Below, in pieces: positions 4,026-52,208 of a stretch of 64,000 nucleotides of DNA. The notes below the pieces were generated by a model. That model had not been told where the DNA came from. It saw only the letters and a program-made list of their open reading frames with translations, and made no database searches. The DNA lies in contig JACVRA010000509.1 of NCBI GenBank assembly GCA_019828545.1, positions 41,849 to 105,848 on the forward strand. Direction: 5' to 3'. Source of the DNA: Paracamarosporium sp. OC-R06-R3. Lineage: Eukaryota; Ascomycota; Dothideomycetes; Pleosporales; Didymosphaeriaceae. Position 1 is the stretch's first letter. The number at the start of each line of letters is the position of its first letter. The position numbers and the translations under genes were made by a program.

Positions 4026-5921
4026 ATGGTTCGCATCACCACCTGGAATGTCAACGGCATTCGTAACCCCTTTGGCTACCAGCCATGGCGCGAGAAGCGC
4101 TCCTTGGACGCCATGTTCGACGTCCTCGACGCCGACGTGGTCATCATGCAAGAGCTGAAGATCCAGCCCAAGGACCTGACAGATGACATGGTCCTGGTTC
4201 CTGGCTGGGACTGCTACTTCAGCCTGCCCAAACACAAGAAGGGTACCACTCTCCTGCCCGCCATGCAACTCCCCCGCTGACCCTCGTCCCAGGCTACTCG
4301 GGCGTCGCAATCTACACACGCCAGGCAGTGTGTGCCCCCATCCGCGCCGAAGAGGGCCTTCTGGGTGTTCTGTGCCCGCCCGGCTCTTCGACGCCGTACC
4401 GCGACCGGCCTGCGAACGCCGCAATCGGCGGATACCCCTCACCCGCACAGGTTGCGCAGATTGCTGCCCTGGGCATCGACCCTGCTGCCCTAGACGCTGA
4501 AGGCCGCTGCGTGGTGCTCGAGTTCCCCGCTTTTGTGCTCTTTGGCGTCTACAGCCCGGCCAACAGCAACGGCCTCCGCGACGATTTCCGCTATGGCTTC
4601 CTCACAGCCCTCGATACGCGCATTCGCAACCTCGCCGCCATGGGGAAGAGGGTCGTCCTCACAGGAGACCTGAATGTGTCGAGGGAGGAGATCGATACGG
4701 CAAGGGCAGAAGAGAGCATGCGCCACGAGGGCATCACACGAGAGGACTACCTCAACGCCCCAAACAGGCGCGTCTTCAACCAGCTCCTCGAAAACGGCAG
4801 AGTCCCCGGCGCTCGGGATCCTGGAAGAGAGAGCCCTGTGCTTTGGGACCTCTGCCGGGAAATGCACCCCAAGCGCGAAGGCATGTTCACCCATTGGGAG
4901 CAGAAGATCAACGCGCGGCCTGGGAACTTTGGCTCGCGCATCGATTACGTGCTCTGCAGCATCGACATCCAGTCGTGGTTCTACGATGCGAATATACAAG
5001 AAGGCCTGATGGGCTCGGATCATTGCCCCGTGTACGCATCTACCAAGGACATTGTCGACTGGCAGGGAGAACAGGTGCACATGGTTGATTTGATGAACGC
5101 ACCGGGAACGTTCAAATCTGGTGTCAGGCTAAGAGACTTCAGTCCGACTCGAGACTTGCTTCCATTGTCAGGCAAGCTGCTTCCAGAGTTCGACAAACGT
5201 CGCAGCATCAAGGACATGTTCACCAGAGCCCGACCGAAGACAACCCCCGATACACAAGAACCTTCCACAGACTGCTCGAAAGCCAGCGTTGGCCCCGGTA
5301 TACTGCAGACAGTCAATGGCTCTGGTGCTAGCCAGAAGGTGTCGCTCAAATCACCCGAGAAGCGCCGCGCCTCAGGTGCACCGCTGTCGAGGACAACAAA
5401 GAGGGGCAAGACGAGCATCGCTGCTGAGGCTGGACAGCAATCGCTTCGAGGCTTCTTTGCCCCCAAGGCTGATTCTCCTACCAAACCCAAGTCGGAGGAC
5501 TCCTCGCCCGAGACTGTGCTTAACGCAAAGCCAACCGAGGACCCGCCGACAAGCTCAGAGGATGCGAAACCCCCCGCCACCCCCGCCACCCCACCCACGT
5601 CCGCCGTTGCGGAACCTATTCGGGACCCCGAAGCTTCCAAAGAGTCATGGGTCAAGCTCTTCTCCAAGAAGCCACCTCCACGATGCGAAGGCCACGATGA
5701 GCCTTGCAAGAGCCTCACCACAAAGAAGCCGGGCATCAACTGCGGGAGGCAGTTCTGGATCTGTTCCCGGTGAGTGACATCCCCACACGTTTGGTAACAG
5801 CCTGCTGACTTTCTTGTCCAGCCCATTAGGGCCCTCTGGGCAGAAGGAGAGTGGAACGCAGTGGCGTTGCGGCACCTTCGTATGGGCCAGCGACTGGAAC
5901 GCGCCCAGTCCGCAGAAGTAG
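4026..5921 (+). CDS. APN2: APN2, class II AP endonuclease / DNA lyase
   Basis: Exons 4026-4242, 4293-5769 and 5822-5921 give 597 residues. The introns (4243-4292 and 5770-5821) are GT-AG, and the frame is continuous through both. The N-terminus ITTWNVNGIRNP followed by MQELKIQ is the exonuclease III-type endonuclease start (catalytic Asn and Glu). LTGDLNVSREEIDTA and GSDHCPVYA are the later catalytic motifs (Asp-x-Asn and Asp-His). A low-complexity linker containing QQSLRGFFAPK looks like a PCNA-binding motif. The C-terminus is a GRF zinc finger (CEGHDEPCKS, GRQFWICSR, QWRCGTFVWASDW), completed only after the last splice. APN2 repairs abasic sites and 3'-blocked DNA ends in the nucleus. It is the classical MAT-locus neighbour in Pezizomycotina and supports the mating-type calls. 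Confidence 0.95.
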
Positions 5922-5933
5922 CGAGTATCACAA

Positions 5934-6395
5934 CCTCACCCCCACCATCACATACAATAGCACCAACATTTTTTGCAATCTTCATTTTCTATCGAGAGTC
6001 ACTAACTACCTACTTGCATTGGAACCCGTGCTTTCCATTATCCACATCCACCGATATTACTCTCCATGCATGCATTCATCCATGCATTCAAAATCAATTT
6101 TGCTCCTTGGTCATATGCTGCTTGCCTGCTTGCCTGCCTGCCTGCCATCCATGAAATTCATATGCAACCGTCTGTTCCGTGCTGCGCGTTCCAATGCTCA
6201 TGCGCCGTGGGAAAATTCAAATGCCGTTGTGCAACAACACCTTGCGTGAGTGGTAAAAAATCTATGCTGGGTATAAGGTATGCTGGTTGGGTGGTTGCGC
6301 AAGGTGTGGTGCTGTGTGTGCGGGGCTTTGGTTGAGGGGAACACTGTGGACGGTTCGACGTGTCGCGGATAGTTGAGAGACTGGCCACAATACCG
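5934..6395. repeat. Outer MAT inverted repeat, left arm
   Basis: This APN2-to-MAT1-1-1 intergenic region matches 9770-10133 in reverse complement. Shared landmarks are ACCTCACCCCCACCATCACA next to APN2, CCACCGATATTACTCTCCAT, CTTGCGTGAGTGGT and GGATAGTTGAGAGACTGGCC. The left arm is longer because of small indels, including a TGCCTGCT tandem at 6119-6150. The remaining bases to 6523 are 3' flank of MAT1-1-1. No gene seen. Confidence 0.85.
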
Positions 6396-6523: not shown

Positions 6524-7632
6524 CTAACGTGAGTTAGACGGACCATCCATACCGGGAAGGGTGGTGCTGGTATTGGCACCCTCACGGAAAGCGGCTAGAT
6601 TCATAGCGATCTCCCTAGGAGAAAGCTCGAAAGCGTCCAAGTCAAAGGGTAGGTTCAGACGATCGAAATCCATGTCGCCAGAGTTCTCTAGGCTGCCAGA
6701 CTGTTCCATACCATTGGTGGCAGGTTGATTCGATAGACCAGTTGCGGCATTGCGCATATCGTTGTGAACGGTCTCGTCGGCGCTGGTGTGTTGATCGGCA
6801 GTCTGCGCAGTAGTCTGATGAGAATCCTGGTAGGTGGTGTTACTATTGTAGGAGGTGACACCTACATCAGCAACCTGATCGGTAGTTGGCTGAGGGCCGC
6901 GGTAATTATTGCCGTTGCTCGTTGTGGCATGCGTTCCAACAGATGCGGATGCATTCTGATCTGTATCCAGGAGAATAGTAGTCATTCCGGTAAGTTTCGC
7001 GATCTCTCGCTTGACTTCACGTTGTTCTCGCTCAGCCATACGCTTCTCTATGGCCTGGAAGGAAGGCATTGTCGGGTTCGGAAACGCCGCCTCAGACATC
7101 GTTGCATTAGAGTGACCGAGGAAGGTAGCGCAGGTCGGGTCTGGGTTCAAGACGAAACCTTGAGCATAGCCCATGGTCTGGCAATAGCGTATGATGTCTT
7201 CAACAGAGTGTGCTTCGTGTGCGACTCCAGATTTCACAGGCTTCTTTCCGAAAGATGAGCGTTGCTTGAGCGTCGGTGCACCGTGCTTGTCAATACCTAG
7301 CACCCATCCCAGTTGTTCAAGATATACATCGGGGCGGGTTATGTTGAGGTAAGGGCAGACAACGCTGAAGAACTGGTCCAGAGGGACTTTGTTCTTGCCA
7401 ATCTGATCACGCATGGTTGACCATGCTTTCGTCATCAACGACCATTTGGATTTATCCGGATCGGAGTTCCACAGAGTTGCCATCGGCTGTGATAGATTCT
7501 TCATGGGCCACTCTTTGAAAGAGGGAATGTTGATGTAGTAGCCTAGAGGTGTGTTAGCTTTGTGGGAGATGGTTCTCGATTGGGATCAACATACATCGAA
7601 ACCCCACGAAAGCATTGAGAGGCTTCTTCTGT
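6524..7632 (-). CDS. MAT1-1-1: MAT1-1-1 alpha-box mating-type protein, rearranged 5' end
   Basis: The body exon 7542-6524 reads into the alpha box: [49 protein letters not shown] and YLEQLGW are characteristic. The upstream exon (from 7632) encodes [13 protein letters not shown] and splices at a phase-1 intron (7543-7594; GTATGT donor, GCTAACAC branch site, CTCTAG acceptor) to give FVGFRCYYIN. Alpha-box proteins are nuclear transcription factors that set MAT1-1 identity. Upstream of 7632 the gene does not continue into its own N-terminus: it meets half an HMG box (left arm, 7633-7989), then a transposase fragment. An alternative splice from the upstream donor at 7835 to the same acceptor skips the HMG piece and restores FVGFRCYY. 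The native ATG is absent on this strand; the shared N-terminal head is at 8797 on the other strand. The family assignment is firm, but expression in this orientation is uncertain. Confidence 0.85.
7550..7632 (-). repeat. Direct repeat of the alpha-box first exon and intron, proximal copy
   Basis: About 83 bp nearly identical to 7796-7878 in the same orientation, with three differences seen by eye. This copy encodes [10 protein letters not shown], with the usual Asn, and keeps a working acceptor (CTCTAG). The other copy has Asp instead and leads into the HMG piece. Confidence 0.85.
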
Positions 7633-7989
7633 TTACATATCTGCTGGACTGACAGGTGCGGAAGCTTGTCCTTCAGCTCCTTGTGCTTCGTGTCGCGATA
7701 CAACATCCAGCAGTTCATCGGACGAGGAGGGTTCTTGCGAATACCAGAAGCAGGGTGATTGGCGGTTGTAGATTGCTTGTCATCGTTTGAGGTGTTAGCT
7801 TTGTGGGAGATGGTTCTCGATTAGGATCAACATACATCGAAAACCCACGAAAGCATCGAGAGGCTTCTTCTGTTTCTCTGGGAGATTCTCAGGAATTTCC
7901 GGGATTTCCAGAAGCGTAGTGACGATCGTGGCTTGAGCCTTTGGGTCTTGGATGGCCTGCAGGACTTGGACCATCTCGGCGCCGGTGCG
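7633..7989 (-). repeat. Inner MAT inverted repeat, left arm (357 bp)
   Basis: Reverse complement of 8869-9225, with no mismatch found by eye. On the minus strand it holds the MAT1-1-1 N-terminal segment from [14 protein letters not shown] to [11 protein letters not shown], an intron-like stretch (donor at 7835), and the first half of an HMG box ([18 protein letters not shown] to LSVQQI). It stops exactly where the right arm enters the HMG intron, and there joins KQKKPLNAF of the alpha-box gene in frame. Its outer end abuts the transposase fragment at 7990. Confidence 0.9.
7796..7878 (-). repeat. Direct repeat of the alpha-box first exon and intron, distal copy
   Basis: Partner of 7550-7632. 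It lies inside the left inverted-repeat arm, so the same bases occur a third time at about 8980-9062 on the plus strand. It encodes [11 protein letters not shown] and the GTATGTTGATC donor. Confidence 0.85.
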
Positions 7990-8637
7990 GCCATTATGAT
8001 CAATCCATATACTAGCCCACACCATCTGTTGAGGTGGCCTACTTGTAGACTCAGCAGTAATCATACAAGGTTTCCATTTCTCATATGGATATCGAAATAC
8101 CCACTCAGCATCGTTGCCGCGGCCCTTTTGAACAGAGCACTCATCACTGAACCGAAAAGGCTCAGATCTCCAGCGATAGTTTGCGCACTCACGGCAGAAT
8201 TTTAACCGTAATTGAGCTGTTGCTCTATTGATTTTTGGCCATCTCTTTGCCCTGAAGTTGCTAAGTCCTTGCTCTTTGAGGGCTCTGTATAGTGTATCAT
8301 ATGATAAGTCCTTCCCCAGGTGTGCCTCCTTGATGAGCTGTTGATAGGTGATCTTAGGTGTTTTCCGTACAGCTCTTAATAGGACACGTTTCTCCCGCCT
8401 AGTAAGCTTAGGAGGCTGGCCTGATCGATATCGAGAGACGTTGCTGCCTGTTTTGTTATATCGATTAATTGTGTCGCGTATACACTTTGCTGAACAGAGA
8501 AACTCCTTGGCCAACTCCGCCGTTGTCGCACCAGCCTCAGCCTTTGAAACAATTGAATTGCGCGACTTTTCCGATAATTCACCACCTGCGACGCTTACCT
8601 TTACTTGTGCTGTGCAGGTGACCGACGATGAATGCAC
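7990..8637 (-). mobile_element. Tc1/mariner transposase N-terminal fragment fused to MAT sequence
   Basis: An open frame from ATG at 8637 encodes about 216 residues of a Tc1/mariner transposase. A helix-turn-helix region (LSEKSRNSIVSKAEAG, TTAELAKEF, IRDTINRY) is followed by a second DNA-binding region (KLTRREKRVLLRAVRK) and the start of the DDE domain (FRFSDECSVQKG, first catalytic Asp). The copy ends at WASIWIDHNGR, so the remaining catalytic residues are missing and it cannot transpose. The frame then continues without a stop into the left MAT arm (TGAEMVQVL) until 7795. With a splice from 7835 to 7543 it would encode a 606-residue transposase-HTH/alpha-box fusion. It sits in the spacer between the perfect inverted repeats. 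Confidence 0.85.
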
Positions 8638-8679
8638 AAACCCGCCGTGAATACCCCACGTGATACGCCGTGACTAACC

Positions 8680-8796
8680 TTGGCGCGCCTGCCGCCTCAA
8701 AAGCCTCAAAAGCCCCCACCTGCGAACTCTCCCACCCTTTGTTCACCCGAGTCCTTCCCAACCCCATCTCTTTCTGAAAAAGCCTGCAAACCCATC
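8680..8796 (+). promoter_or_regulatory. Only intact upstream region of the MAT pair
   Basis: This 117-bp, pyrimidine-rich leader precedes the ATG at 8797 (CCACC, CTTCCCAACCCCATCTC). It lies inside the 879-bp spacer (7990-8868) between the perfect arms, back to back with the transposase fragment. I infer that it contains the promoter or leader of the shared head exon. No TATA box is clear. Confidence 0.4.
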
Positions 8797-9756
8797 ATGT
8801 CTGCCACATACCTTGAAGGTGGTACTCGTCCTCCAACCGCTGCCGAGATTCGCGACTACTTGACCTCTCGCACCGGCGCCGAGATGGTCCAAGTCCTGCA
8901 GGCCATCCAAGACCCAAAGGCTCAAGCCACGATCGTCACTACGCTTCTGGAAATCCCGGAAATTCCTGAGAATCTCCCAGAGAAACAGAAGAAGCCTCTC
9001 GATGCTTTCGTGGGTTTTCGATGTATGTTGATCCTAATCGAGAACCATCTCCCACAAAGCTAACACCTCAAACGATGACAAGCAATCTACAACCGCCAAT
9101 CACCCTGCTTCTGGTATTCGCAAGAACCCTCCTCGTCCGATGAACTGCTGGATGTTGTATCGCGACACGAAGCACAAGGAGCTGAAGGACAAGCTTCCGC
9201 ACCTGTCAGTCCAGCAGATATGTAAGTAATTTCTTTAAAGCTAGTTATCTGACTACCAGCCAATTTCCTGTCGCAGATATGCTAACCATTAACAGCAACT
9301 CTTTGCTCTCAAGACTGGAAGAACCTTCCTGCAGCTGAGAAAGAGGAGTGGCGAGCGCGTGCTAAGGATGCGAAAGAGGAGCATCAGCGCATGTACCCGG
9401 ACTACAAGTACATGCCTCGCAAGCCCGGTCAGAAGAAGAAGCGCCAGTCTCGAAAGGTTGCACAAGCTGCGACGGCTTCAACACTCAACGGTACGCTAGG
9501 CAAAACCGACTCCGATACTTTGCCAGTTCTCACACCAACCTCAGCGAACTTGACCAACCTAGGCATGAATGTATCCAGTGCCATCATGCACAACACCAGC
9601 GACAACGAGTCTACCAGGCAGGGTTTGCTCGGAATCGAACTTGGTTCTATTCTCGACTTTGACTCTGCGGATCTCTTGGGCGATGAGGCCTACTCTTTCC
9701 GGGACGGAGCAGATGATAACACCACCTCGCCATCCTGCACTTCAGAGATTTTCTAA
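8797..9756 (+). CDS. MAT1-2-1: MAT1-2-1 HMG-box gene with a MAT1-1-1-type N-terminus
   Basis: Proposed exons 8797-9022, 9060-9221 and 9296-9756 give 282 residues. Exon 1 ([20 protein letters not shown] to [11 protein letters not shown]) is the N-terminus of an alpha-box gene, cut after FVGFR. After a phase-1 junction the protein continues into the MAT1-2-1 HMG box: [58 protein letters not shown]. The HMG intron (9222-9295, phase 1 in the Ser codon, GCTAACC branch site) is at the position conserved in fungal MAT HMG genes. The weak point is the first intron: only 37 bp (9023-9059, CACAAAG acceptor) keeps the frame. HMG MAT proteins are nuclear DNA-binding factors for MAT1-2 identity. This gene carries the only intact start and upstream region of the locus. 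Confidence 0.8.
8869..9225 (+). repeat. Inner MAT inverted repeat, right arm (357 bp)
   Basis: Mirror of 7633-7989. It begins at CGCACCGGCGCCGAG inside exon 1 of the HMG gene and ends at TATGTAA, just inside the HMG intron. The boundary bases differ on both sides (8868 T against C; 9226 G against A), so the arms are exactly 357 bp. Confidence 0.9.
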
Positions 9757-9769
9757 GTTCTTGGGCATA

Positions 9770-10133
9770 TTGTGGCCAGTCTCTCTCAACTATCCGCGAC
9801 ACGTCGAACCGTCCAGACACACCTTGCAACCACCCAACCAGCATACTTTATACCCAGCATAGATTTCCCACCACTCACGCAAGGTGTTGTTGGACAACGG
9901 CATTTGAATTTCCCAGCGCATGAGCATTGGAACGCGCAGAACAGACGGTGGATATGAATTTCATGGATGGCAGGCAAGTAGCAGGTCATGTGACCAAGGG
10001 GCGAATTTGATTTTGAATGGATGGAGAGTAATATCGGTGGATGTGGATAATGGAAAGCACGAGTGACTCTCAGAAAATGAGGATTACAAAAAATATTGGT
10101 GCTATTGTATGTGATGGTGGGGGTGAGGTATAA
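9770..10133. repeat. Outer MAT inverted repeat, right arm
   Basis: The 3' flank of the HMG gene is a diverged reverse-complement copy of the APN2/MAT1-1-1 flank. It ends at GGGGTGAGGT, the copy of bases about 10 bp past the APN2 stop. APN2 coding sequence itself is not repeated. This shows that the second MAT gene was added in inverted orientation together with APN2-side flank. No gene in 9757-10150. Confidence 0.85.
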
Positions 10134-11371: not shown

Positions 11372-13841
11372 CTAATCTAAGTAGCACCTAGGCCTTTGAC
11401 GCTTTCGTGGTGGGGGTGGGACGAACTCTTCAACAGGGCTACTCTGCACAGAACTGTGCCACGGAGCTTCTTCTTCCTCTTCTTCTTCCTCTAAGGATAC
11501 TAATGGCTCAGGTTGAGGTACATTACTTGGGAGTTCAAATAAGTCTCTAAACTGACCACTGTCTTCGCTAGCCTCAATTGCAGCCTCTTGAGTTATATGA
11601 GTATCATCTATCTCTTGAGCAATTGCATGTTTGAGTATTAACAGCTGTTGAATTGTGCCTGCAGCAAGGTTAAGCCTTCGATTCCCAATTACGTCTTTAG
11701 CTGTATTAAAGACGCGCTCTACACCAACTTCAGCAATTGGTATTGCTGAAATGTCTTTAGCAACTTAAGCAAGCCGTGGATAAGCTCCCTCATTATCTTT
11801 CCACCATTGAAGGAGATCAAAGCCTTCGCTCTGTCTCACACAGGGTGTGCTAAGGTATAATTCACCTTCTTGATGAGTAGCACCCACGCAGTCTTCTTCA
11901 GTCTCAAATGATGTAGAAATAGAGCGCTGAGAGAGGTTACTCGTTGATCGCTGCTGTGGCCTGCGAAACCATTCACTAGTCTGCGTCCTCCTTGGGTAGG
12001 TAACTGAAGCAGGAGTAATATCCCTTTCTTCAAGAGAGTCATAGCGGTCTAGATACTCAAGGAACTCCTGGCGATATATATGTTTGCCTTGAACCTCCCA
12101 AGTCTTATCCTACGCATACAATTAGAAAGTATCTGTGATAAACGGCTGTGATAATATACCTCATACGCAGTGAGCTTCTGGGTTGGATCTAGTATGGTTG
12201 CGCAGTTAAATAGGTATCCGCGTTCACCTCCTGTCCTTGCGTAGTACTTAGACAGCTTCGCTCGACCCCTTTCAGCTGCTGATTTCACAATATTAGGCCA
12301 ATTTGTAACCCCTCCATCATCTTGATCTTCACTTAAGTCTTCTGTCATCTTATCAAGGAAGTCGAAAAGGCGGTTGTACATAAGCCAAATATATGAGATC
12401 TGAGGCCTCTCGTCCTGGCTGAGAAACGTAGTTGCATCTTTGAAGTTTTTTAGTATCTTTGTGACAAGCCCAAGATGATGCCATTCAGTAGCTGATAGTT
12501 GGAGTCGTTTAAGGTCGCGGAAATCGGCCTTAGAAACTTCACTGCTTCCTGTGTGGGAATTTGAACTCATCTTTTGTGCTATTTCTGTTCGGAGCCATTC
12601 ATCAATATAGTTCCTGAGGTGAACTGCGCGCGCACATATATCATATGTTGAGTTCCATTGTGTCTTTACATCTCGTATAACAGAGAGACGCTTCTTTGGT
12701 TCCTTGTCTTTTTGTGTAAGGATAAATCGCTCAAAACGCTGTGGTGACCGATCAATCGCAATACAGATAGCGCGGAGCTGCCTCAAGTTCGTATGTGATA
12801 GATAACTGTGATAATCCTGCTAACCTTGCGAAGGGAGTTTGGTACTGATACCCTTGTCTCAATATCGTTAATATGACGCCTCTGTAGAGTTTCGGCGACG
12901 TCTATCTCATTTGAAGCTGAGAGTCGAAGGTGCTGAATAATATCCTGAACAACAAGATTGATGATATGAGCAAGGCAAGGAATCGCGTTCTCCTTACACT
13001 CCCAATTTACGCCTGCTACTTTAAGCTTACTTTGAAGCGTTAAAGCCAGCGTATTATTGTTACTAGCATTGTCACAGGTGATTGCTAGTAGTCGCTGTAC
13101 TGTGTCCGTATTAGATAGAACCTGAAGAACGTCTCCTGCCATAGAAGCTCCAGTATGCCTCCCCCGAATTGGAATAAAATCAAGCAGTCTATTCCGAAGT
13201 TGCCAGTTGTCGTTAATGTAGTAGCTATTAATTGCAAGGAAGCTAAGGTGATTGTTTGCAGACCGCGCGTCAAGAACAATAGAAATCTTTGTATTCTTCC
13301 TAAGGTCTTCAAGGAGTGAGGCTTTTGCTTTTGTAAACTGCTCTTTAAATATCAGTTTAAAAGTATATCGACTGATTTTTGGTGTATTTAGCCTAAGGAA
13401 TTGAATAAAGCGCTGAAAGGATGGTCGCTCAATGGAGCGGAATGGCCAGTTGTTATCTACAATGGTAGATTGAATTGATAGAGTATTGAGGCAAAGCGTT
13501 GTTTTATTGAGTAGCTACGTTGTGGAAGCTATATACTGTACTGCCTTGATGATCCGATCACGTACCAGAGTCACGCAAGTGGCACCTGAGGTGATCCATA
13601 AGGTGGCCTATGCTTCATGGCTCATATCCGAAACCTCACATACAACAACACAGACTAATTCCTTTTGAAACGCCTCTGCTGAGTATAGTGGTATAGTAGG
13701 CGTATTATTTCTCGTAGTAGGGCTAAGAGTAGTTGTAGATAATTGAGAGTGAAGTGGTGATAAAATAGCCTGACACTGATTTAAGTTGCGGTGGTTGATT
13801 AGGTGCTTTGTACTAATACTGTAACGAGGCTTAGGACTCAC
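11372..13841 (-). pseudogene. hAT-family transposase, decayed
   Basis: Conceptual product read on the minus strand: an N-terminal part near 13841-13500, then the RNase H-like core (KISIVLDARSANNHLSF, FIPIRGRHTGASMAGDV, ITCDNASNNNTLA with the catalytic Asp) and the hAT dimerisation region (WWKDNEGAYPRLA, IPIAEVGVERVFNTAKD). The tail is Glu-rich and Pro-rich. Two introns are clear: 12778-12824 and 12110-12159; both contain TTATCAC words. The conserved LDCWTS-type motif is LDARSAN here. A stop interrupts PRLA*VAKD near 11765, as CAA to TAA, and others break the N-terminus. The enzyme would cut and paste its element, but this copy looks dead. Confidence 0.8.
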
Positions 13842-13899: not shown

Positions 13900-13911
13900 N
13901 NNNNNNNNNNN
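13900..13911. other. Assembly gap (12 N)
   Basis: Twelve undetermined bases between the hAT N-terminal region and AT-rich sequence. The join across it should be treated with caution. 13912-14550 holds no supportable gene; a 63-residue frame on the minus strand (14361-14170) has no recognisable feature. Confidence 0.95.
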
Positions 13912-15699: not shown

Positions 15700-15988
15700 T
15701 ATAGAGGAGTAGGTGCAGAATACTGTGATAACGGTACGTGATTATTCCAATAGCTGTTGAGGTGTTGAGGTGCTGAGGTGCTGAGGTGCTGAGTTGCTAA
15801 CGTGGTTGGCAGGCTGTAGGGCAAACGGCATTTGGCAGCACCTCTAGGCAGGCAGGCGCACGTGACCTGAGCGGCTTGGCAATTACATAAGCATCTACAT
15901 ATCAAAACACCACAATACTCTACTTACACTGCAACACTCTACTTACACTAGAATACCCTACCTACACTACAACATCAATTCCTCTATA
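15700..15988. promoter_or_regulatory. Divergent intergenic region between acidic gene and H3 variant
   Basis: Two small tandem repeats occupy it: GAGGTGCT units at about 15758-15795 and CTCTACTTACACT units at 15915-15970, just before the H3 start. A GTGATAAC word like those in the introns lies near 15725. I infer a bidirectional promoter; no TATA box is certain. Confidence 0.4.
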
Positions 15989-16546
15989 ATGTCAAGAAGC
16001 AAGCCTAGACAGACCGCTCCTACTGCTAGGGCTGCAACAGGCGGCAAGCAGCCTAGAAAAGACCTTGCAACAAAAGCCGCCCGCAAAGCTCCTCAGAAAC
16101 AACCCAAGAAAACCGCGAGAAAACCGCGCAGGTACAAGCCAGGCAGTAAGTTATCACAGTTTATTATCACAGTTCTTAGCTAATAGTGCGCAGCTGTTGC
16201 TCTCCGTGAGATCAAGAGATACCAGAAGTCCACCGATCTCTTAATACTAAAGACACCTTTCTCAAAACTTGTGCGGGAGATCGCCCTGGAGGTTAGTGAG
16301 AGTTTGCGGTTCCACAGATCTGCTCTAGAAGCTTTGCAAGAGGCTACTGAAGCTTTCATAGTTGGATATCTTGAAGGTACATTGTTTTTCTCTACCTATT
16401 AGCTATATTCACTAACTCTAAAAGACTGCAATCTTAATGCTATTCACGCCCATCGCGTCACAATTCAAGTGAAAGACTCACAGCTTGCTCGGCGATACTA
16501 TGGCAAGTTTGGACAGCCAGGTTTCTCAGGGATAGATAGTTTCTAG
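15989..16546 (+). CDS. Divergent histone H3 variant lacking the K9-S10 pair
   Basis: Exons 15989-16145, 16194-16376 and 16425-16546 give 153 residues. The histone fold is complete: [20 protein letters not shown] (alpha-N), [36 protein letters not shown], then [18 protein letters not shown] and LARR. The N-tail keeps TGGK, PRK, TKAARK (K14, K18, K23, K27 equivalents), but where canonical H3 has ARKSTGG it has ARAATGG, so K9 and S10 are both Ala, and S28 is Ala too. There is a 5-residue insertion before this point and a 14-residue C-terminal extension ([14 protein letters not shown]). Loop 1 is not lengthened, so it is not an obvious CENP-A. The first intron (16146-16193) has two TTATCACAG words; the second does not. 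It would act in nucleosomes if expressed. Confidence 0.88.
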
Positions 16547-16658: not shown

Positions 16659-18519
16659 ACGTACTTCATAAGCGAGTGGCTCACACAAGCGAGTGGCTCA
16701 CGATGCCAAGCCCCCATCAAAACGTACTATCACCTATAGTATAACGTGATGTCTCAACTATCAGTACAGCTACTAGTATTAAAAGAAGCTCAACTACAGC
16801 TTGCGCTCTAGGCTATGAAACAAGACGCGATGCTTTCTTAAAGACGCGCTGCAGCTATCTATAACGTCTCCCAAAGATCAATTAGCAATTAACGCGCTGG
16901 AATAACCTTTCGACCTGATTGCACGCCCAACTCAATGAATCTTCTAAAGACAGAGGAGCAGGTGATTGTTCAGCACATACTCGATCTAGATACGCGAGGA
17001 TTTCCGCCCCGGCTTGCTGCTGTTAAGGATATGGCTGACTCTTTGTTGGCTGAGCGGCAACGTAAGCCTGTTGGCCGGAACTGGGCTGCAAACTTCGTTA
17101 AGCGTCAGCCAGAGCTCACAGTGAAGTTCAATCGAAAGTACGACTACAAGAGAGCCCTCTGTAAGGATCCTGAGGTTATACAAGCTTGGTTCTGGCTTGT
17201 GGAGAATACTAAAGCTAAGCATGGTATCCTGGATGATGACATCTACAATTTTGACGAGTCGGGCTTCATGATGGGCATGATATTAACCGGAGCAGTTGTC
17301 ACAGGCTCTGAGCGTCGAGGACGGCCAAAGAGCGTGCAGCAGGGCAACCGGGAGTGGACTACAGTTATCTAAGGCATTAACGCGATGGGGTGGGCGATCC
17401 CACCCTTTATTATCTTTCAGGGCAAGCACCACCTCTCCACCTGGTATAAAGAGAAGGATCTACCACACGATTGGGTTGTTGCAGTCTCTGAGAATGGCTG
17501 GACAACAAATGAGCTTGGCTTACGCTGGTTGAAGCACTTTGATGAGCATACAAAGAAGCGTGTTGTTGGTGCAGCACGTTTGCTGGTTATCGACGGCTAT
17601 GAGAGCCACGACTCGCTTGAATTCTAGCAATACTGTAAGGACAATAAGATTATTACTCTCTGTATGCCTCTACATTCGTTGCACCTCCTGCAGCCGCTTG
17701 ACGTTGGCTGCTTTTCGCCGTTAAAGCGCACGTATAGTCGCCAGATCGAGAGCCTTATACGCGACCATATCAACCATATTACAAAGCTAGAGTTCTTACC
17801 AGCCTTTTACGCAGCCTATGAGCAGTCAATCACAAAGGAGAATATCTGCGCAAGCTTTCGAGGCGCTGGCCTAGTCCCACACGATCCAGAGGCAGTAATA
17901 TCAAAGCTTGATGTGAAGCTTCGCACGCCAACGCCGCCTGCGCCAGAGGTCACCCTCTGGGAAGCCAAAACACCAAGCAACGCGCGTGAGCTAGATGCTC
18001 AATCAACATTGATTCGCGATAGGATTCAGAGACATAAGAGCTCATCGCCTGCTTCTATTATTGCAGCGCTTAACCAGCTTAAAAAAGGCGCTGAGGTGAT
18101 AGCGTACGAAAGTACGCTTATGCGCGATCGGATCGCGAGGCTTGAGAAAGCAAATGAGGCTGCCACAACGCGTAGAAAGCGTAAAAAGAAGAGGATCCAG
18201 CAGAAAGGCACCCTAACAAAGGCAGAGGCAGAGGATATTATTACCTAAAGAGACGTTGAGCAGCAGCTAGAGGGGGAAACGCGCCAAGGCAAGGCGCGAT
18301 CAGGTACGAGTCGGCAGGCTTCAGCGCGCTGCAGCCGCTGCAGGCAGACTGGCCATAACTCACGAACCTGTAAGAAAGATACTATAGATACTCCTTAATC
18401 TAGCGCAGCTTAAATATTATAATTATCTTATTGCGTTATGAAGATAGGTTGCTGTAAAGGCGTAAAAAGTTGGTAGGGGTCGCCGCTCGCTTATAGTCGC
18501 CGCTCGCTTATAAACACGT
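16659..18519 (+). mobile_element. pogo/Fot-type element with terminal inverted repeats
   Basis: About 1.86 kb flanked by TA on both sides (16657-16658 and 18520-18521). Each end has a TIR that contains an internal direct repeat: ATAAGCGAGTGGC words at the left, and the complement of ATAAGCGAGCGGC words at the right. The internal conceptual transposase has a CENP-B/pogo-like N-terminus (RQRKPVGRNWAANFVKRQPE), then YNFDESGFMMG, VIDGYESH and HSLHLLQPLDVGCFSPLK (the DDE triad region) and a C-terminal CSRCRQTGHNSRTC knuckle. Confidence 0.85.
16755..18397 (+). pseudogene. Transposase of the pogo/Fot element, broken by stops
   Basis: The frame is recognisable throughout but is interrupted at several places, for example near 16814, 16840, 17370, 17627 and 18246. 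At each, TAA or TAG stands where Gln (CAA or CAG) is expected; 17370 and 17627 are the clearest. No frameshifts are needed. That pattern (C to T in CpA) is what RIP produces in Pezizomycotina. The protein would have been about 540 residues; it cannot be functional as it stands. Confidence 0.85.
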
Positions 18520-18907
18520 TACGAAAGATTGAATCTGAGAATAGACAATGTTTCAATTTTGAGAAGTCTTTCGCATATGAGCTCCAGGTCTTTCTTAAGC
18601 AACAACCCAAACAGCTTTCTTCGTGATAGATGCTACAGCCGCAATCAACGATGCGCAGGCACATTAGAGAGAGTCACTCGCTCAGCACGTCAAAGCGCAC
18701 AGTACTAGCCCAAGATTAAAGTACCAATCCTATCCTACACTCCGCTAGTCAAGGTTCATATACATCAGAATATGCAGCCCGGTCAACCTTCGGCTGAGAA
18801 GAACGAGTCTGCAAATCCTCAAGAGAGCTGATGCTCAGCATTTGGAATTTCTCATCATCATTAGGATGCCGATACTTCTGTTCGCCCTTGTAGAAACCTG
18901 TCATAGG

Positions 18908-20533
18908 TTAGCGTGGAACAGGTCGTTTCGCTTTCCAGCAACACATACCAATGGCCTCAGTGATAGAATTGAGGGGGACAGTTCTGAGTCGGAAGTTCGG
19001 ATCGAACAAGCCACGCGGGTGTCGGGGTGCGTACACAGACTCAGGGTTGGGGTACATCTAATACAATTAGCTATGACATTATTGTTGCCTTGAAGACTTA
19101 CTGGTTGAATAAAGACCCGGCGTCCGTCAAGAGAGGTATAGTTTGAGGGATAGTTAAGTCTCAGACTCTGCTTGCGATTAGTCGTGCCGGAGAGTGGGTT
19201 GACAAGGTAGGGTACCGTTTGATCGAAATCGGCCAAATGGTTCGCTTCTTCCGGAGTGCCTTGGGTATCCTGGGTGGGTGAGAAGGGGATCAACAAATGA
19301 TATGTGTATCTCACCTTGAAAGCTTTCCCTACGAACTTCCTCATCTTTTTGGTGTGCTTGTCAACAATTGCCAGTCCTCCGCGGGGTATATGCGCTTCGA
19401 ACGTGGCATGGTTTGGTCCATTTGCATGGTTTGGTCCATTTGCATGGTTTGGTCCATTTGCATGGTTTGGTCCATTTGCATGGTTTGGTCCATTTGCATG
19501 GTTTGGTCCATTTGCATGCTTTGATCCATCCTTTGCATGCGGGTATATTCTCTCCTTTTGGGGAACCCCAAAACCTGGAGAGTCCTTATATAGAAACTGT
19601 TGCCACATTTTGATGCCAGACTTGAAAGCTCCTTTGCTCATAGGTAATCGCATCATGGACAGAGTATCGATAAAAGTAATAGGTCCAGCAATACCCTTTG
19701 GTCTAGGCACGATCAAGGTATTTATCACCTTTTGAAAGGTTTCCAGGTCGTCAGAGAAATCCCTTGCATGCCTGCAATGAGGCACGTCGGAAGGACCAAA
19801 GTATTGATGAGGTAGGATTGCAACTTCCTTCAGCTGATCTAGCAAATGGAACCACACGCTCTGCATGGCCGCTGAGTCGGCAACCAGGAAATCGGCAAAG
19901 TAATCGCAGATCTTAGCAGCCATATCCCAGAAGGCATCGAGGAAGGCGGGGTCGCATTGTTTGAGGTGGAAATCTGATTCGGTGAAAGCTGAAGGGGTGA
20001 GCATGGTATTGAATGGTGTTGTTTCACTTACTTTGTTTGTTTTCGGATCCGGGGTTGATGATGAGGCGGCCGCGGCCGGGGTGGTCGAATAGGTTGTTGA
20101 TGCCTTTCCATACCGTCTCGAGCTCGAGTTCGTTGTCTTTGTTGATATATTTCAACGTTGTTGGCGGATTCTCTTCATAGTCGGAGATGAGTATGACAGG
20201 TGGATCCATAGCACGGCGACGGCGTCGTGGCGGACCAGAGGGTTGATGTGGTCTAGGTGGCGGACCCATAGCTGCAGGTTGATGGAATCCGGGTGGTGGG
20301 TTCATGGCTGCAGAGGGATGGAATGGCGGAGCCATAGTTATAGAATGATGGAGTCTAGGCGGCGGACCCATAGCTGCAGGTTGATCATACGGGTTCCAGG
20401 CTGCAGAGGGTTGATGGAATCCAGGTGGCGGGTTCATGGCTGCAGGTTGATGGGATCCAGGTGGCGGGTCCATGGTTGCACAGCGTTGATGGCGTCTGGC
20501 AAGCGGTCTTCTGGTGGGTAGGCTGGACAGCAC
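18908..20533 (-). CDS. Orphan protein with Pro-rich and HANGPN repeats
   Basis: Exons 20533-20032, 19988-19102 and 19057-18908 give 512 residues, or 492 if the ATG at 20473 is used. Introns of 43 and 44 bp (19989-20031 and 19058-19101) have GTAAGT donors and proper acceptors, and the frame is preserved. The N-terminal 130 residues repeat MxPPPGxHQPAA about eight times. Near the middle, HANGPN repeats six times in a row from an 18-bp minisatellite. The rest (DFHLKQCDPAFLDAFWDMAA, VPYLVNPLSGTTNRKQS) is globular in look, but I recognise no family. It lies between the pogo element and the solo LTR and has no stops. The 387 bp downstream to the pogo end (18520-18907) hold nothing I can name. Confidence 0.65.
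19405..19520. repeat. 18-bp minisatellite inside the orphan gene
   Basis: Six essentially identical copies of CATGGTTTGGTCCATTTG, read on the plus strand, followed by degenerate copies. The unit is a multiple of three and encodes HANGPN on the minus strand, so copy-number change keeps the frame. Confidence 0.9.
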
Positions 20534-30113: not shown

Positions 30114-30410
30114 GTGGCGTTTGATGTGTGTCGGGTGTCTTCGTGTTGTTTTCATCTGCGTTTGTTTGCGGTTTCTTCGCCAAGCCCCTCAGGCATTCAT
30201 CCGCCCAACGCCTCACTAGCCCTGCACAAGTTTCCTGCACGGGCATGTTCCGCAAGGTGCAGGCTCTGGCGACACACTTATCGGCAACGTGAGCAGCTGC
30301 AATGAGCCGGAAAGCGAGTCAAAGAACGGCGAAAGCCATCGCACTATTAACAACGACTAGGGCCATTTCGAAATCGAGACAGACGGTCGAGCGGAAATGT
30401 CGTGGGTGAA

Positions 30411-30535
30411 GCTGCATTTTCAATAGCACGCGCTACTGGTGGGGCACAATTTCGCCTGACCAGGTCAAACCAAAACACGAACAAGGCGCCGTCCTCTGCT
30501 TGGCGGCATATGTCTCTCTCATCGGCGTAGCTTCC
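30411..30535 (+). repeat. 125-bp dispersed repeat, inverted copy at 43815-43939
   Basis: GCTGCATTTTCAATAGCACG to CGGCGTAGCTTCC is repeated in reverse complement at 43815-43939 with no difference seen by eye. It includes CAGGTCAAACCAAAACACG, a word that also occurs in weaker copies near 30740. Confidence 0.85.
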
Positions 30536-33500
30536 TTGGACGATGCTGATGCACATAGTGCAGCTTCGTCGAGCGTATGTGAAAACGTCGACTGCTCCCC
30601 GCAATACGCGATTCCGCGCTCGCGCTCGATATGAAGGGTATACTACTCATTGTCAGTATCCTCGCAGGTTGAAGCGTAGGCGGCGGCGCCTTCCGCTTGG
30701 TGCTCTCGTACGAAACATGCACCCACCGCGCCTCACCAGGTCAAACCAAAGCGCAAACAAGACGCGCCTCCGTATCTGCTCAGCGGCACATGCCCATCTC
30801 TTTCTGTCATCGAAGAAGCTCTCATGGAACATGTCGGCGCACCCAGCACAGCTTCGTTGAGTGTAGAGCGTGCGACGAACGTGTACTCTTCAAAGCTCAC
30901 CACTTCACCACCTCGACTGCTCCCTCACAACGCACGATTCCACTCCCGCGCTCTTTACGAAGCATGCAGTACTCACCGCACCTCACAGGTCAAAGCGCAA
31001 GCAAAGCTCAAGCAAAGCTCAAGCAAAGCGCCCTCTTCTGCTTGACGGGACATGTCTCTCTCTCTCATCGAAGCAGCGTTCTTGGAAAACGCTGCGGCAC
31101 ACTTAGCGCAGCGTCATTGCGTGTCTGGAAGCCTGTGTTGGTTTCCTCAGGAGCGTATGGATATGTCGCATGCCGTCGCCGATGCGTGCCGAGGTCCTGC
31201 CATGCTTGCAAGGTAGAGGATATTCGCTGCGCGCGTTGCTGGGATGTATGAACAAGGCGCACTCTTCTGCTTGATGGCACACGTCTCTCTCATCGAACCA
31301 CATGCTTGGAAGACGATTGCGCAACCGGCGAGGCGTCAGTTTGTGTTTGGAAGCGCTTGCGTGCTTGGTTTCCTTAGGAGCGTATGGGTATCTCCTATGC
31401 CGTCGCCGACACGCACCGAGGTCCTGCTATGCTTATGAGACAAAGTAGATGCTGCAGCGCACCTAACGCAGCGTCGTCGAGTGTTCGGAAACGCGTGCTT
31501 AGTGTCCGGAAGCGCGTGTTTGGTGTCCTGCGTACGAGTATCTCTCATGCCATCGCCGATGCGTGTCGAGGTCCTGCCATGCTTACGAGATAAAGCAGAT
31601 TCGCTACTTGCGCCGCTGGGATTTAGGAAACTGGTAGTAGGCGAAGGCGGGGCGTGGGGGACTGGGAGTTCGGAGTACGGTCTGCCCGCGGAGATGGGTG
31701 CGAGCGTGGTTCACGGGGAGATGGTATTCTTCCGAGCTGGAGGACATGTTCGGCTTACGCCTAGCATTCATGAAGCTGGTGGTAGGCGAAGGCGGAGCGT
31801 AGAGCGTAGGCCTTCAAAGTACGGTCTGTGTTGAGCGCATTGAATGTGTTCAGAAGCGTTGGGCCTCCTTCGTACAAGTACCTGGCATGCCGTCGCCGAT
31901 ACGCACTGAGGTCCTGTCATGCTTGTGAGTCAGAGGGAGATATGCTGCGCCGCTAGAATTTGGTCAACATGATGGCGTGGAGGGAGACGCGCTTCTGGGG
32001 CTGGTGGTGCGGCGTAGAGCATCGGAGCTTTAGACTACGGTCTGCGTGGAGCACATCGAATGTGTGTGGAAGCGTCAGGTCTCCTTCGTTCAAGTATCTG
32101 GCATGCCGTCACCGATACGCACCGAGGTCTTGTCATGCTTACGAGCTAGAGGGAGATGGGCTGCTTGCGTGGCTAGAATTTGGTCAACAAGATGACGCGA
32201 AGAAGAACGCCGCTGGGAATCATGCACCTGTGTACGAATATCTTCCATGCCGCCGTCGATACACACAAAGTTCCTACGCCAGTCTACAAGCTGGAAGGAG
32301 CGTCCGCGTTGCTTGGTTGCTTGCGCTGCTGGTGTTCATGGGCTGGTGGCGCGGCGTAGAGCATCGGAGCTTCAGACTGCGGTTTGAGTGTTTGGAAGCG
32401 TTGGGTCTCCTTCGTACATGTATCCGGCATGCCGTCACCGATACGCTCAGAGGCCCTGCGCCAGTCTTACGAGATAAAGGAGATGCGCTGCTGGAGTTTC
32501 CTGTATATGAATATCTCCTATACCGCCGTCAATACGCACGGAGGGCTCGGAGGTCCTACCATGCTTATGAGCCAGAGGGAGACGCGCTTCTTCGCCGCTG
32601 GGAATCATACACCTGTATACGAATACCTCCCATGCTATCGCCGATACGTACGGAGGTACTGCCATGCTTATGAGCTAGAGGGAGACGCACTTCTTACGCC
32701 GTTGGGAATCATGTACCTGTATACGAATATCTCCCATGCCGCCATCGATACGCACGAAGTTCCTGCGCTGGCCTACAAGCTGGAAGGAGATGCGTTGCTG
32801 GGATTCATGGGGCTGGTGGCACGGCGTAGAGCATTGGAGCTTCGGACTACGGTGTGAGTGTCTGGAAGCGTTGGGTCTCCTTCGTACGAATATCTTCTAT
32901 GCCGTCGCCGATACGTACGGAGGTCCTGCCATGCTTGTGAGCCAGAGGGAGACACGCTTCTTGCACCGCTGAGAATCATGTACCTGTACATGAATATGTC
33001 CTATGCCGCCGTCAGTACGCACCGAGGTCCTGCGCCAGCCTAACAAGCTGAAGTAAGATGTGCTGCTGCAATCCAGTCAACATAACAGCGCGGAGAAGTG
33101 GTGGGGTATAGTAGAGCTCACTGAAAGTGTTTGGATGTGCTGGGCCTCCTTCATACAAGTATCCGGCATGCCGTCGCCGATACGCACCGAGGTCCTACCG
33201 TGCTTGTGAGCCAGAGGGAGATGAGCTGCTTACGCCGCTGGGATCTAGTCAGCATGAGGGAGACGCGTTTTTCACACCGCTGGGAATCATGTACCTGTAT
33301 ACGAGTATCTTCCATGCCGTCGTCGATACGCTCAGAAGTCCTGCCGTGCTTACAAGCTAGAGGGAGATGTGCCGCTTACGCTGCTGGGATTCAGTCAATA
33401 TGATGCTGCGGAGGGAGACACGCTTTTCGCACCGCTGGGGATCACGTACCTGTATACGAATGTTTCCCATGCCGCCGTCGACACGCTCGGAGGTCCTGCT

Positions 33501-43800: not shown

Positions 43801-43814
43801 CAGAGGAGAAAGTA

Positions 43815-43939
43815 GGAAGCTACGCCGATGAGAGAGACATATGCCGCCAAGCAGAGGACGGCGCCTTGTTCGTGTTTTGGTTTGACCTGGTCAGGCGAAA
43901 TTGTGCCCCACCAGTAGCGCGTGCTATTGAAAATGCAGC
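43815..43939 (-). repeat. Inverted copy of the 125-bp repeat at 30411-30535
   Basis: Exact reverse complement by eye. It sits between the pyrimidine-rich repeats and the kinase pseudogene. Confidence 0.85.
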
Positions 43940-44085
43940 GTCACCCAGGTGACCTGACGAGACCGGCAGTGGGGCAGACGACATGGGCTGCGGCCGCGCC
44001 TGACATGCCGCCTGTTGCTTCACGGATTGGACGCCAACCATGAGTTTTTACGTTCCCCTCTTTCGCTCCGAGGGCACATGCTCCT

Positions 44086-49325: not shown

Positions 49326-52208
49326 ATGCGTCTGCTCCAGCGCCTGCCAGGCGGCACCTACGAGCTGACCTACTTCGACCATGACGATCCGCCCCCGTAC
49401 GCCATCCTTTCGCATACCTGGGAGGAAGGTCAAGAAGTCTCATACCAGGAGCTTATTGCTGGTGCAGGCAGAGACAAGACGGGGTTCGAGAAGATCCGTT
49501 TCTGCGGTGAACGAGCAGCAGCAGACAAGCTGCAGTATTTCTGGGTTGACACCTGCTGCATCGACAAAACAAACATCGGCGAGTTAGATACAGCAATTAA
49601 CTACATGTTTAGATGGTACTAGCGCTCATCTAAGTGCTATGTATACCTCTTAGACGTTTCTGTGGGCGATTACGACCCCGCGGCCTTTCTAATAACATGG
49701 GCAGACGCTTTTCGCCGCAGTCGATGGTTCACACGCGGATGGACGTTACAAGAGCTCATGGCACCGGGCAGTGTTGAATTCTTTTCTAGGGAGGGCAAGC
49801 GTCTGGGCAGTAAGATAACCCTAGAACACCAAATACACGACATCACTAGAATACCTATAAGGGCTTTAAGAGGACATAACCTTGCTGAGTTTAGCGTTGA
49901 GGAGCGTATGAGCTGGGTGACTTCGCGTATAACGAGTGTGAAGGAAGACCGAGCATACTGTTTGCTTGGCATTTTTGGAGTGTTCCTGCCAATAATACGT
50001 GGAGAAGGGGAAGAGCACGCAATGAAGCGGCTTAGGAAGGAGATTCGAGAACAACAAGAATTAGAAACTGCGCAGACAAGCAGCGGCAGCCACAACATGC
50101 GTAAGTGGGCACTAACAGCTATGTGTGGCTACAGGTTGCTAATGAATCTTTCGCAGAACGACTGCAAACCACTCGCCCATCCTATGTGATCCCTTTCCGC
50201 CGTGACCCCGACTTTGTTGATCGCGGGACGCTGCTCGACGAGCTGAAGGAACGATGCTCTGCGCCAGCGTCCCGGGTGGCGCTGGTTGGTGTTGGAGGTG
50301 TGGGGTAGGTTTTCTAGCAGTTCCTTAGGTCGGCGGTCGCACCTCGTCTAACAAGGGAACAGCAAGTCGCAGCTGGCCATAGAGCACTGCTACCGCACGC
50401 ATGAAACATCGCCAGGGATGTGGGTACTATGGGCGCATGCCAGCAGCACCGCCCGGCTCGAGCAGAGCTTCCACGACATCGCTGACCGTATCAAGATCGA
50501 AAGGCGACAAGATCCGCAGGTTAACATCTTTAAGCTGGTGCACGACTGGATGTGCGACACCAACGAGCGGTGGCTGCTCGTATTGGACAACGTCGACGAT
50601 GCTGGCTTTCTGCTCGATGTCCAAGGTACTAGCTCTAAGACGATAGCGAAACCGTTGCACGAATACCTTCCAAGCTGCGAGCATGGATCTATTCTTGTGA
50701 CAACGCGGAACAAAGAAGCCGCCTTGCAGCTGGTAGAACAGCGCGACATTATCCCGCTCGATCCGATGAGTGCACCACAGGCGCGGTCTCTGCTCGCAAA
50801 GAAGCTCGGAGTGCCAGCGGCTGACAGTGGTACTGCCGAGCTCACTGAGCTCGCTACAGTACTTGAACACATGCCGCTTGCCTTGGTTCAAGCTGCTGCA
50901 TATATCTCGCAGAGAGCGCCGCTGTGCTCCGTAGCGCAGTACCTTGATCAGTTTAGGAAGAGCGAGCGCAAGCGGACGAGCCTTCTCAGCTACGACAAAG
51001 ACCATCTGCGACGCGATCGGGAGGCGAAGAACTCAATCATCATGACGTGGCAGATCTCGTTCGAGTACATACAGCAGACACGGCCGTCGGCAGCAGACTT
51101 GCTATCATTGATGAGCTTCTTCGACCGCCAGGGGATTCCCAAGAATGTACTACAGACGCAAGCCGAGGATCAAGAGGGCAAATTCAATCGCAAAATCGAT
51201 GAGGCTAGGGCAGGTCGCAATGGGCACGACAAGAGCGTGAATGATGGCGACGTTGAGGGGCAGCTTGGCGAATTTGAGATCGACGTAGAAGATGAACTTA
51301 GGAACGACTCTGCGGATGCCTCTGAAGACAACAACTCTGAGGACAACGACTCTGAGGACAGTGACTCTAAGGACAACGACTCCGAAGATGATACATTTTT
51401 GGAAGACGTCACAGCCCTACGCAACTTCAGCTTCATCTCTGTTAACACTGACAGCACAATTTTTGAGATGCACGCCCTAGTGCAACTATCGATGCGTACG
51501 TGGCTTGCGGCGAACGGAAGATTAGGACGCTACAAAGACCAATTTATCAACAACCTTTGCGAGGCGTTCCCTACAGGGGAGTATGAGAATTGGACAGCGT
51601 GTCAGGTGCTATTCGCGCACGCTAAGGCGGCGTCTGGTCACAAGCCAGAAGCGGTATCTTTACTAGTGCAGTGGGCTACATTGCTGTATCGTGCAGCATG
51701 GTGTGCAGAGGGCAAAGGAAGTGCAGGTGAAGCAGAGACGCTAGCAATACAGTCATTGAAGGCACGGAAGAAGGTTTTAGGGCGAGAGCATGAGGATACT
51801 ATATGGAGCATGGCGATGGTAGCGGATGCCTACTCACTTGCGGGACGGTGGGATGAAGCGGAGAAACTAAGAGTGCAGGTGATGGAGATTCGCAAGACGA
51901 AGCTCGGAGCAGACCATCCCTCCACGCTGACCAGCATGGCCAACCTCGCGTCGACATACTGGAACCAAGGCCGATGGGAGGAGGCGGAGAAGCTAGAGGC
52001 ACAAGTGATGGAGACGAGCAAGACGAAGCTTGGAGCAGACCATCCTTCCACGCTAACCAGCATACACAACCTAGCTTTCACATGGAAGTCACTCGGCCGG
52101 AGTGTAGAAGCTATAAGATTAATGCAGCAGTGTGTGCAGCGGCGGGAAGAAGTGCTTAAAGCTAGTCATCCTAACTCTATGTCTTCCCTGTCGGTCCTGA
52201 ACCAATAG
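49326..52208 (+). pseudogene. HET-NB-ARC-TPR protein with one in-frame stop
   Basis: Exons 49326-50100, 50157-50304 and 50363-52208 give 922 codons, counting one TAG at 49619-49621. HET domain: YAILSHTWEEGQEVSYQEL, FWVDTCCIDK, then WFTRGWTLQELMAPGSVEFF. The second splice restores the P-loop GVGGVGKSQLA. WLLVLDNVDD is Walker B, GSILVTTRN the sensor, and MPLALVQAAAYI the GLPL-like motif. An acidic Ser/Asp/Glu/Asn linker (EDNNSEDNDSEDSDSKDNDS) precedes C-terminal 42-residue TPR units (GRWDEAEKLRVQVMEIRKTK, LGADHPSTLTSMANLASTYW). Such proteins mediate heterokaryon incompatibility and cell-death signalling. The stop falls in FRWY*RS, where relatives have Gln, so CAG became TAG. All else is intact, so loss may be recent or the stop could be an assembly error. 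Confidence 0.9.

Follow-up and report, generated by a model that had tools for sequence, protein, structure and literature searches.

The mating-type (MAT) locus of Paracamarosporium sp. OC-R06-R3 raises the question of whether two mating-type genes can be served in turn by a single start region that is flipped from one to the other. In the window (the whole stretch of 64,000 nucleotides that was analysed), MAT1-1-1, the alpha-box gene, and MAT1-2-1, the HMG-box gene, lie head to head on opposite strands and are fused in one locus with inverted and diverged 3' flanks, and a short segment carrying a canonical start is enclosed between two long inverted repeats, referred to below as arms. This arrangement had been read in the first-pass annotation as a candidate invertible mating-type switch. 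MAT inversion between arms derived from MAT1-1-1 is already known in Sclerotiniaceae, and inversion between the arms described here appears plausible. The reading favoured in this work, which we hold to be just about probable, is that the arms are a young, locally templated inverted duplication that became competent for inversion by chance.

Layout and genomic context of the MAT locus

The features of the locus are collected in Table 1. The body of MAT1-1-1 scores 125.3 bits against the Pfam MATalpha domain (cut-off 28.1), and the closest MAT1-1-1 is that of Paraconiothyrium brasiliense (50%; P0001). The HMG box of MAT1-2-1 is split by an intron, and both halves are recognised by Pfam, the first (3e-9) having been scored on the arm 1 copy at 7554-7820 (-), identical to arm 2, and the second (2.6e-7) on 9286-9756; the closest MAT1-2-1 proteins are those of Didymosphaeria variabile and Paraphaeosphaeria sporulosa (53-54% over 73%). 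Paraconiothyrium brasiliense and Didymosphaeria variabile belong to Didymosphaeriaceae, Pleosporales, which points to a probable placement of the fungus in this neighbourhood. Among the other relatives, the MAT1-1-1 (P0031) and MAT1-2-1 (P0079) of Zopfia rhizophila are each modelled on a contig of 332122 bases and are therefore probably encoded on one contig, a likely homothallic arrangement.

Table 1. Features of the MAT locus and its immediate flanks (positions in the window)
Feature	Positions	Strand	Remarks
APN2-like DNA lyase	4026..5921	+	Pfam Exo_endo_phos 1.3e-11; named from its domains and place
Outer inverted flank, 3' of MAT1-1-1	5933..6380	+	blocks 91-100% complementary to 9782-10129
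MAT1-1-1 body (exon 2)	6524..7542	-	1019 nt including stop; CTCTAG acceptor; Pfam MATalpha_HMGbox 2.4e-36
MAT1-1-1 own intron 1	7543..7594	-	52 nt, intact; CTAAC branch-like site
Remnant of MAT1-1-1's own exon 1	7595..7632	-	conserved Asn kept
Arm 1	7633..7989	-	exon-1 codons 25-75, truncated intron 1, HMG exon, GTAA
Tc1/mariner-like transposase fragment	7990..8595	-	Pfam HTH_Tnp_Tc3_2 9.8e-13
Putative 5' region of head	8596..8796	+	assigned from its place between the end of transposase homology and the ATG
Head: first 24 codons of MAT1-1-1 exon 1, from ATG	8797..8868	+	
Arm 2	8869..9225	+	exon-1 codons 25-75 (8869-9022), intron remnant, HMG exon, GTAA of intron 2
Intron remnant in arm 2	9023 to about 9064	+	
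HMG exon in arm 2	about 9065-9221	+	
HMG intron 2	9222..9295	+	74 nt, GTAAGT...AACAG
MAT1-2-1 body (exon 3)	9296..9756	+	Pfam HMG_box 2.6e-7; near-invariant HMG columns kept
Outer inverted flank, 3' of MAT1-2-1	9782..10129	-	

In the assembly (43.1 Mb, 337 contigs), MAT sequence is confined to the contig of the window, save for one weak match to the HMG query on contig C260 (27%, E 7.2e-5), and a second MAT locus was not found there. The locus is adjoined by the APN2-like gene, in which a GRF zinc finger scores 19.3 bits, under the Pfam cut-off of 25.9. The outer flanks share 74% overall identity, with gaps, and form an old inverted pair of the kind expected from an inverted MAT1-1/MAT1-2 fusion. 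A remnant of a hAT-like transposase (11765-12109, -; Pfam Dimer_Tnp_hAT) lies beside the MAT locus, next to an ORF (12783-13514) for which no family was matched, and a run of 12 N at 13900-13911 possibly marks an assembly gap. Pieces of a Tc5/pogo-like transposase with HTH_Tnp_Tc5 and DDE_1 domains are found at 16893-18248 (+), and an ORF between transposon pieces (15866-16183, +) encodes what we take to be a likeness to the N-terminal tail of histone H3. Farther along, an ORF at 18901-20151 (-) contains head-to-tail HANGPN repeats and matches no Pfam family, and a large protein with tetratricopeptide repeats (50352-52208, +) presumably resembles fungal NLR-like proteins.

Neither gene body contains a stop or a frameshift. 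Near-invariant columns were derived from 28 of the 42 alpha relatives and 24 of the 44 HMG relatives, after removal of models that were partial or redundant, and are kept at 62 of 65 positions in the alpha body, at 15 of 18 in exon 1 and at 49 of 50 in the HMG part, where the sole difference falls at the artificial start of the query. When the whole alpha protein was compared by leaving out one sequence at a time, deviations numbered 7/87 each for P0002 and P0003, 3/86 for P0001 and 6/83 for the reading of the window. Both gene bodies look constrained rather than decayed. This bears on the view that the lineage is asexual and that at least one of its MAT genes has been put out of action by nested rearrangements, a view that would agree with the failure to find the native N-terminus of MAT1-2-1, with the loss of a splice acceptor and of the 5' end proper to MAT1-1-1, and with the transposon pieces within the locus and to its right, but fits poorly with uninterrupted bodies that keep their near-invariant residues, even if decay may not have had time to become visible since the arms arose; we consider it quite improbable.

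An alpha-headed HMG gene

The first-pass annotation had assumed a single head shared by both genes. Alignments with relatives replace this notion by another, in which exon 1 of MAT1-1-1 stands before an HMG gene devoid of its own N-terminus. This exon aligns with the N-termini of the MAT1-1-1 proteins of 8 of 9 relatives, the ninth model lacking the exon, and its first 24 or so residues show little conservation among the aligned sequences; the head is also matched by P0001. None of the nine aligned MAT1-2-1 proteins carries an alpha head; most have a different N-terminal stretch of up to about 115 residues, some models being shorter, and this native stretch is missing from the locus studied here. 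It was not found elsewhere in the genome either, in searches with P0044 or with residues 1-100 of P0043, the latter search having no positive control. The presence of the alpha exon-1 head, together with the missing native N-terminus, indicates that the HMG gene is an alpha-headed chimera.

Among the 44 HMG relatives, one more protein of this kind was identified, P0071 of Lindgomyces ingoldianus (Lindgomycetaceae), whose alpha exon-1 head is detected with E 6.8e-10 by a profile of 33 relatives plus the head from the window and with 1.8e-4 by the latter alone. A search with P0071 for further alpha-headed HMG proteins returned seven proteins, of which one (P0087) was new and lacks an alpha head. 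As in the window, MAT1-1-1 exon-1 sequence precedes the HMG box in P0071, but the fusion point is different and the protein is known as a prediction alone; the two chimeras look independent.

Perfect inverted arms around one canonical start

The arms had been described by eye as 357-bp inverted repeats free of mismatches, and alignment of both bears this out, as they are exact reverse complements over 357 of 357 nt and lie 879 nt apart. Identity over 357 bases cannot be attributed to chance. Of the five inverted pairs of at least 60 nt in the whole window (20-nt exact seed), this pair is the longest and the sole perfect one. A second long inverted pair (30403-30536 and 43814-43947; 134 nt, 99%) is spaced 13 kb apart. 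Read outwards from the head, each arm begins with codons 25-75 of exon 1, continues through intron 1 as far as the branch-like site and then through the HMG exon, and closes with the GTAA of the following intron; the arms thus join a MAT1-1-1 fragment to an HMG exon, so that a piece of MAT1-1-1 also sits at MAT1-2-1. Between them lie the transposase fragment, about 200 bp that may hold a promoter, and the 24 codons with which the head begins. Both gene bodies are outside the arms, and the spacer, unlike the segment that turns in Sclerotinia, holds no whole MAT gene.

Several elements of the first-pass annotation hold at this level: the 879 bp contain the only canonical MAT start, the 24 codons from the ATG at 8797 face the HMG gene, and the transposase fragment, a Tc1/mariner-like piece, faces the alpha-box gene. 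It had further been stated that in either orientation one gene would have the head and the other the transposase. This is correct for the canonical 24-codon start, which is single, but not for exon-1 codons 25-75, the part belonging to the alpha box, which stay with both genes whichever way the spacer lies.

The ends of arm 1 are sudden joins that do not follow gene structure, one leading from the middle of the transposase to exon-1 codon 25 and the other from the donor of the HMG intron to exon 1. An open frame is kept at both (chance about 1 in 9), as judged by ORF 7554-7820 for the join to the exon-1 remnant, and few bases at most are shared at either. The sequence of the arms occurs in the assembly on contig C244 only, at the two places in the window, and a contig with the opposite orientation was not found, one orientation having been assembled. 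The locus might owe its appearance to assembly, with the orientation of the spacer or the repeat itself being wrong, given that arms longer than short reads would make the orientation uncertain and that the N run at 13900 may be a gap. Misassembly by overlap would be hard, however, where the joins of arm 1 share so few bases, and no N run was found inside the locus, which makes such an artefact very improbable.

The transposase fragment and the start of MAT1-1-1

The transposase fragment is 85% identical to C232:15862-16470 of the same assembly, and the homology stops within one base of the edge of arm 1, by which its C-terminal side has been cut off. No convincing terminal inverted repeats were found around the C232 copy. 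The fragment was considered as the agent of inversion and rejected, as it ends after ..WIDHNG, where the C232 copy continues, and so misses the rest of the catalytic domain, a reading for which we presume the usual domain layout of Tc1/mariner transposases. Its frame remains open into arm 1, in frame with exon 1 (ORF 8673-7795, -), and in-frame ATGs occur on the alpha strand 25 and 12 codons before arm 1, within the transposase fragment, and once within the arm.

Given a promoter and a long splice, one strand would therefore already provide alpha-box coding sequence without any inversion. A static homothallic locus could be imagined on this basis, in which both genes are expressed as assembled and the arms are irrelevant, the HMG gene using the alpha head and MAT1-1-1 a transposase-derived or internal (MVQ...) start. 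The open transposase frame would suit such a locus, as would the weak Pfam alpha match of exon 1, which begins within the arm (24.0 bits, short of the 28.1 cut-off), the poor conservation of the first residues, about 24 in number, and the alpha-headed HMG protein predicted in Lindgomyces ingoldianus. The transposase would, however, be in frame by chance in 1 of 3 cases, the fragment has no known promoter and the splicing problems described below apply equally, and we regard a static locus as distinctly unlikely.

Splicing and the case for a switch

Fungal splicing favours short introns and CAG/TAG acceptors. The chimeric intron between exon 1 and the HMG exon has lost its normal acceptor and retained the CTAAC branch-like site. 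Past this site, the first AG is met after 19 nt, at 9082 (the corresponding distance in the native intron is 11 nt), and its use leads to a frameshift and a product of 135 residues; use of the AG at 9059 keeps the frame, with an intron of 37 nt and a product of 282 residues, and the AG at 9124 is followed by an immediate stop. A GTGGGT donor is present at 9009 and would be in frame with the acceptor at 9082.

After inversion, the same AG sites would be met by the alpha gene. Its head, as had been noted, can be joined in frame to the alpha body (226 nt of exon 1 plus 1019 nt), giving 414 residues, a normal length and exactly that of P0001 of P. brasiliense, but this product would require an intron of 293 nt, from the exon-1 donor in arm 1 at 7836 to the acceptor side of the alpha body at 7542, that skips them all. 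With the normal acceptor lost, the transposase in frame and exon-1 residues 25-75 present in each arm, neither orientation yields a clean gene by ordinary splicing.

Of the proposed invertible switch, the perfect arms, the single canonical head and the in-frame product of 414 residues thus stand, whereas no second orientation was seen and the splice signals are poor. In its full form, the proposal would be a programmed reversible switch, in which the arms recombine in the sexual cycle, the promoter and start codon are handed to the HMG or the alpha gene depending on orientation, and nuclei come to differ in mating identity. Besides the features just named, the constrained gene bodies would be accounted for, and there are precedents: in Sclerotinia the arms are identical and derived from MAT1-1-1, and the alpha box is cut after its first 15 residues in the inverted (Inv+) form (PMC3574095), and flip/flop systems are stated to have arisen at least 10 times in yeasts (PMC6692504). 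Set against this are the single orientation in the one assembly, the splice signals of the chimeric intron, which disfavour a proper product in either orientation, the replacement of Asn by Asp in the arm copy (see below) and the in-frame ATGs that the headless gene still possesses. We judge a programmed switch to be possible but unlikely. Reversible start-swapping, whereby one promoter and 24 codons turn between the arms, the canonical start passes to a different mating gene in each orientation and the other gene receives a transposase-derived start, is in our estimation unlikely as well; if true, what defines cell identity would be the relocation of a start and not of a gene.

Origin of the arms

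The young, accidental duplication is favoured over a selected switch because of the lost acceptor and the Asp change. The remnant of the own exon 1 of MAT1-1-1 and the arm copy form a direct repeat (D1) with 81 of 84 positions identical, and one of the three differences converts Asn to Asp in the arm copy; among the 42 MAT1-1-1 relatives, 33 contain a match to the motif and every one of these has Asn at this residue, while the other 9 have no motif match. The arm copy, or its last homogenisation, is probably young because no divergence is seen between the arms (0/357, with an upper limit of about 0.8% by the rule of three), as compared with 3/84 in the exon-1 duplicate and 74% identity in the outer flanks. 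Judged by these figures, the outer flanks would be old, the exon-1 duplicate younger and the arms the youngest or recently homogenised.

We infer the order of events, the repair mechanism and the capacity to invert as follows. A Stemphylium-like inverted fusion would have placed both mating-type genes head to head and left their 3' flanks as the old inverted pair. In MAT1-2-1, the native N-terminus would have disappeared and exon 1 of MAT1-1-1 would have been gained, and later the 5' end of MAT1-1-1 would have received an inverted copy of a 357-bp block of the chimeric gene, inserted between the truncated transposase and the last codons of the exon 1 proper to MAT1-1-1. The copying would most likely have proceeded by microhomology-type templated repair, with the outcome of a small cassette in which one canonical start lies between perfect arms and whose inversion, by recombination between the arms, could take the start away from the HMG gene and give it to the alpha gene. 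Recombination of this kind is proposed for the 250-bp arms of Sclerotinia sclerotiorum, which likewise derive from MAT1-1-1. The assembled orientation appears to be the simpler ancestor, since in it the head runs on into arm 2 and the HMG intron without a break in gene order. The reverse order of events could also be envisaged, with the HMG exon entering MAT1-1-1 first. An origin of the arms by staggered-break inversion was disfavoured by reasoning, as removal of either arm leaves unnatural joins.

We think that the arms are a repair accident rather than a selected switch. Against this it may be said that continued exchange would likewise produce perfect identity of the arms, that the gene bodies look constrained and that the reading frame stays open across either join of arm 1.

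Comparison with known systems

A search of the open-licence literature in PubMed Central returned nothing on mating type in Didymosphaeriaceae or Lindgomyces, on chimeric MAT genes in Pleosporales or on inverted fusion in Dothideomycetes. Inversions at MAT have been described in other ascomycetes. In Sclerotinia sclerotiorum, a 3.6-kb segment is bordered by identical copies of a 250-bp piece of MAT1-1-1 that also occurs at MAT1-2-1; half of the progeny carry this segment inverted, and Inv+ transcripts retain no more of the alpha box than its initial 15 residues (PMC3574095, Chitrampalam et al. 2013). MAT inversion is likewise recorded in Ciboria shiraiana (PMC10569646). Inverted MAT regions have also been reported in Cochliobolus kusanoi, Peyronellaea and Stemphylium, with their stability not established at the time (PMC3574095). 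In the flip/flop systems of the yeasts Ogataea, Komagataella and Ascoidea, expression is switched to another MAT gene by inversion between inverted repeats, which in Ascoidea rubescens take in the 5' end of MATa1 (PMC6692504).

With the Sclerotinia system, the locus shares identical inverted arms derived from MAT1-1-1 (250 bp there, 357 here) and a MAT1-1-1 divided near the start of the alpha box. It differs in that the Sclerotinia segment of 3.6 kb turns with whole genes in it, that the truncation of MAT1-1-1 there affects the 3' end and that progeny show both orientations, whereas here the segment to be turned would measure 879 bp and contain no more than a start region, two genes would compete for this region and one orientation was seen. 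The Stemphylium-type fusion is likewise found in Pleosporales and consists of two fused genes, one inverted relative to the other, but perfect internal arms or a shared exon do not figure in the excerpted description (PMC3574095). Yeast flip/flop also relies on inversion between inverted repeats, but entire MAT genes are shuttled in yeasts between an expressed and a silenced site, while in the locus described here the start would be relocated and the genes left where they are. Even if the cassette never turns, the locus documents a chimera of alpha exon 1 and HMG gene together with a MAT1-2-1 without its native N-terminus, and Lindgomyces ingoldianus provides a second predicted alpha/HMG chimera in another pleosporalean family. 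On the favoured reading, it would show an inversion-competent MAT arising through a few local repair events, and its anatomy, similar to that of Sclerotiniaceae, would be convergent in Pleosporales, on a far smaller segment.
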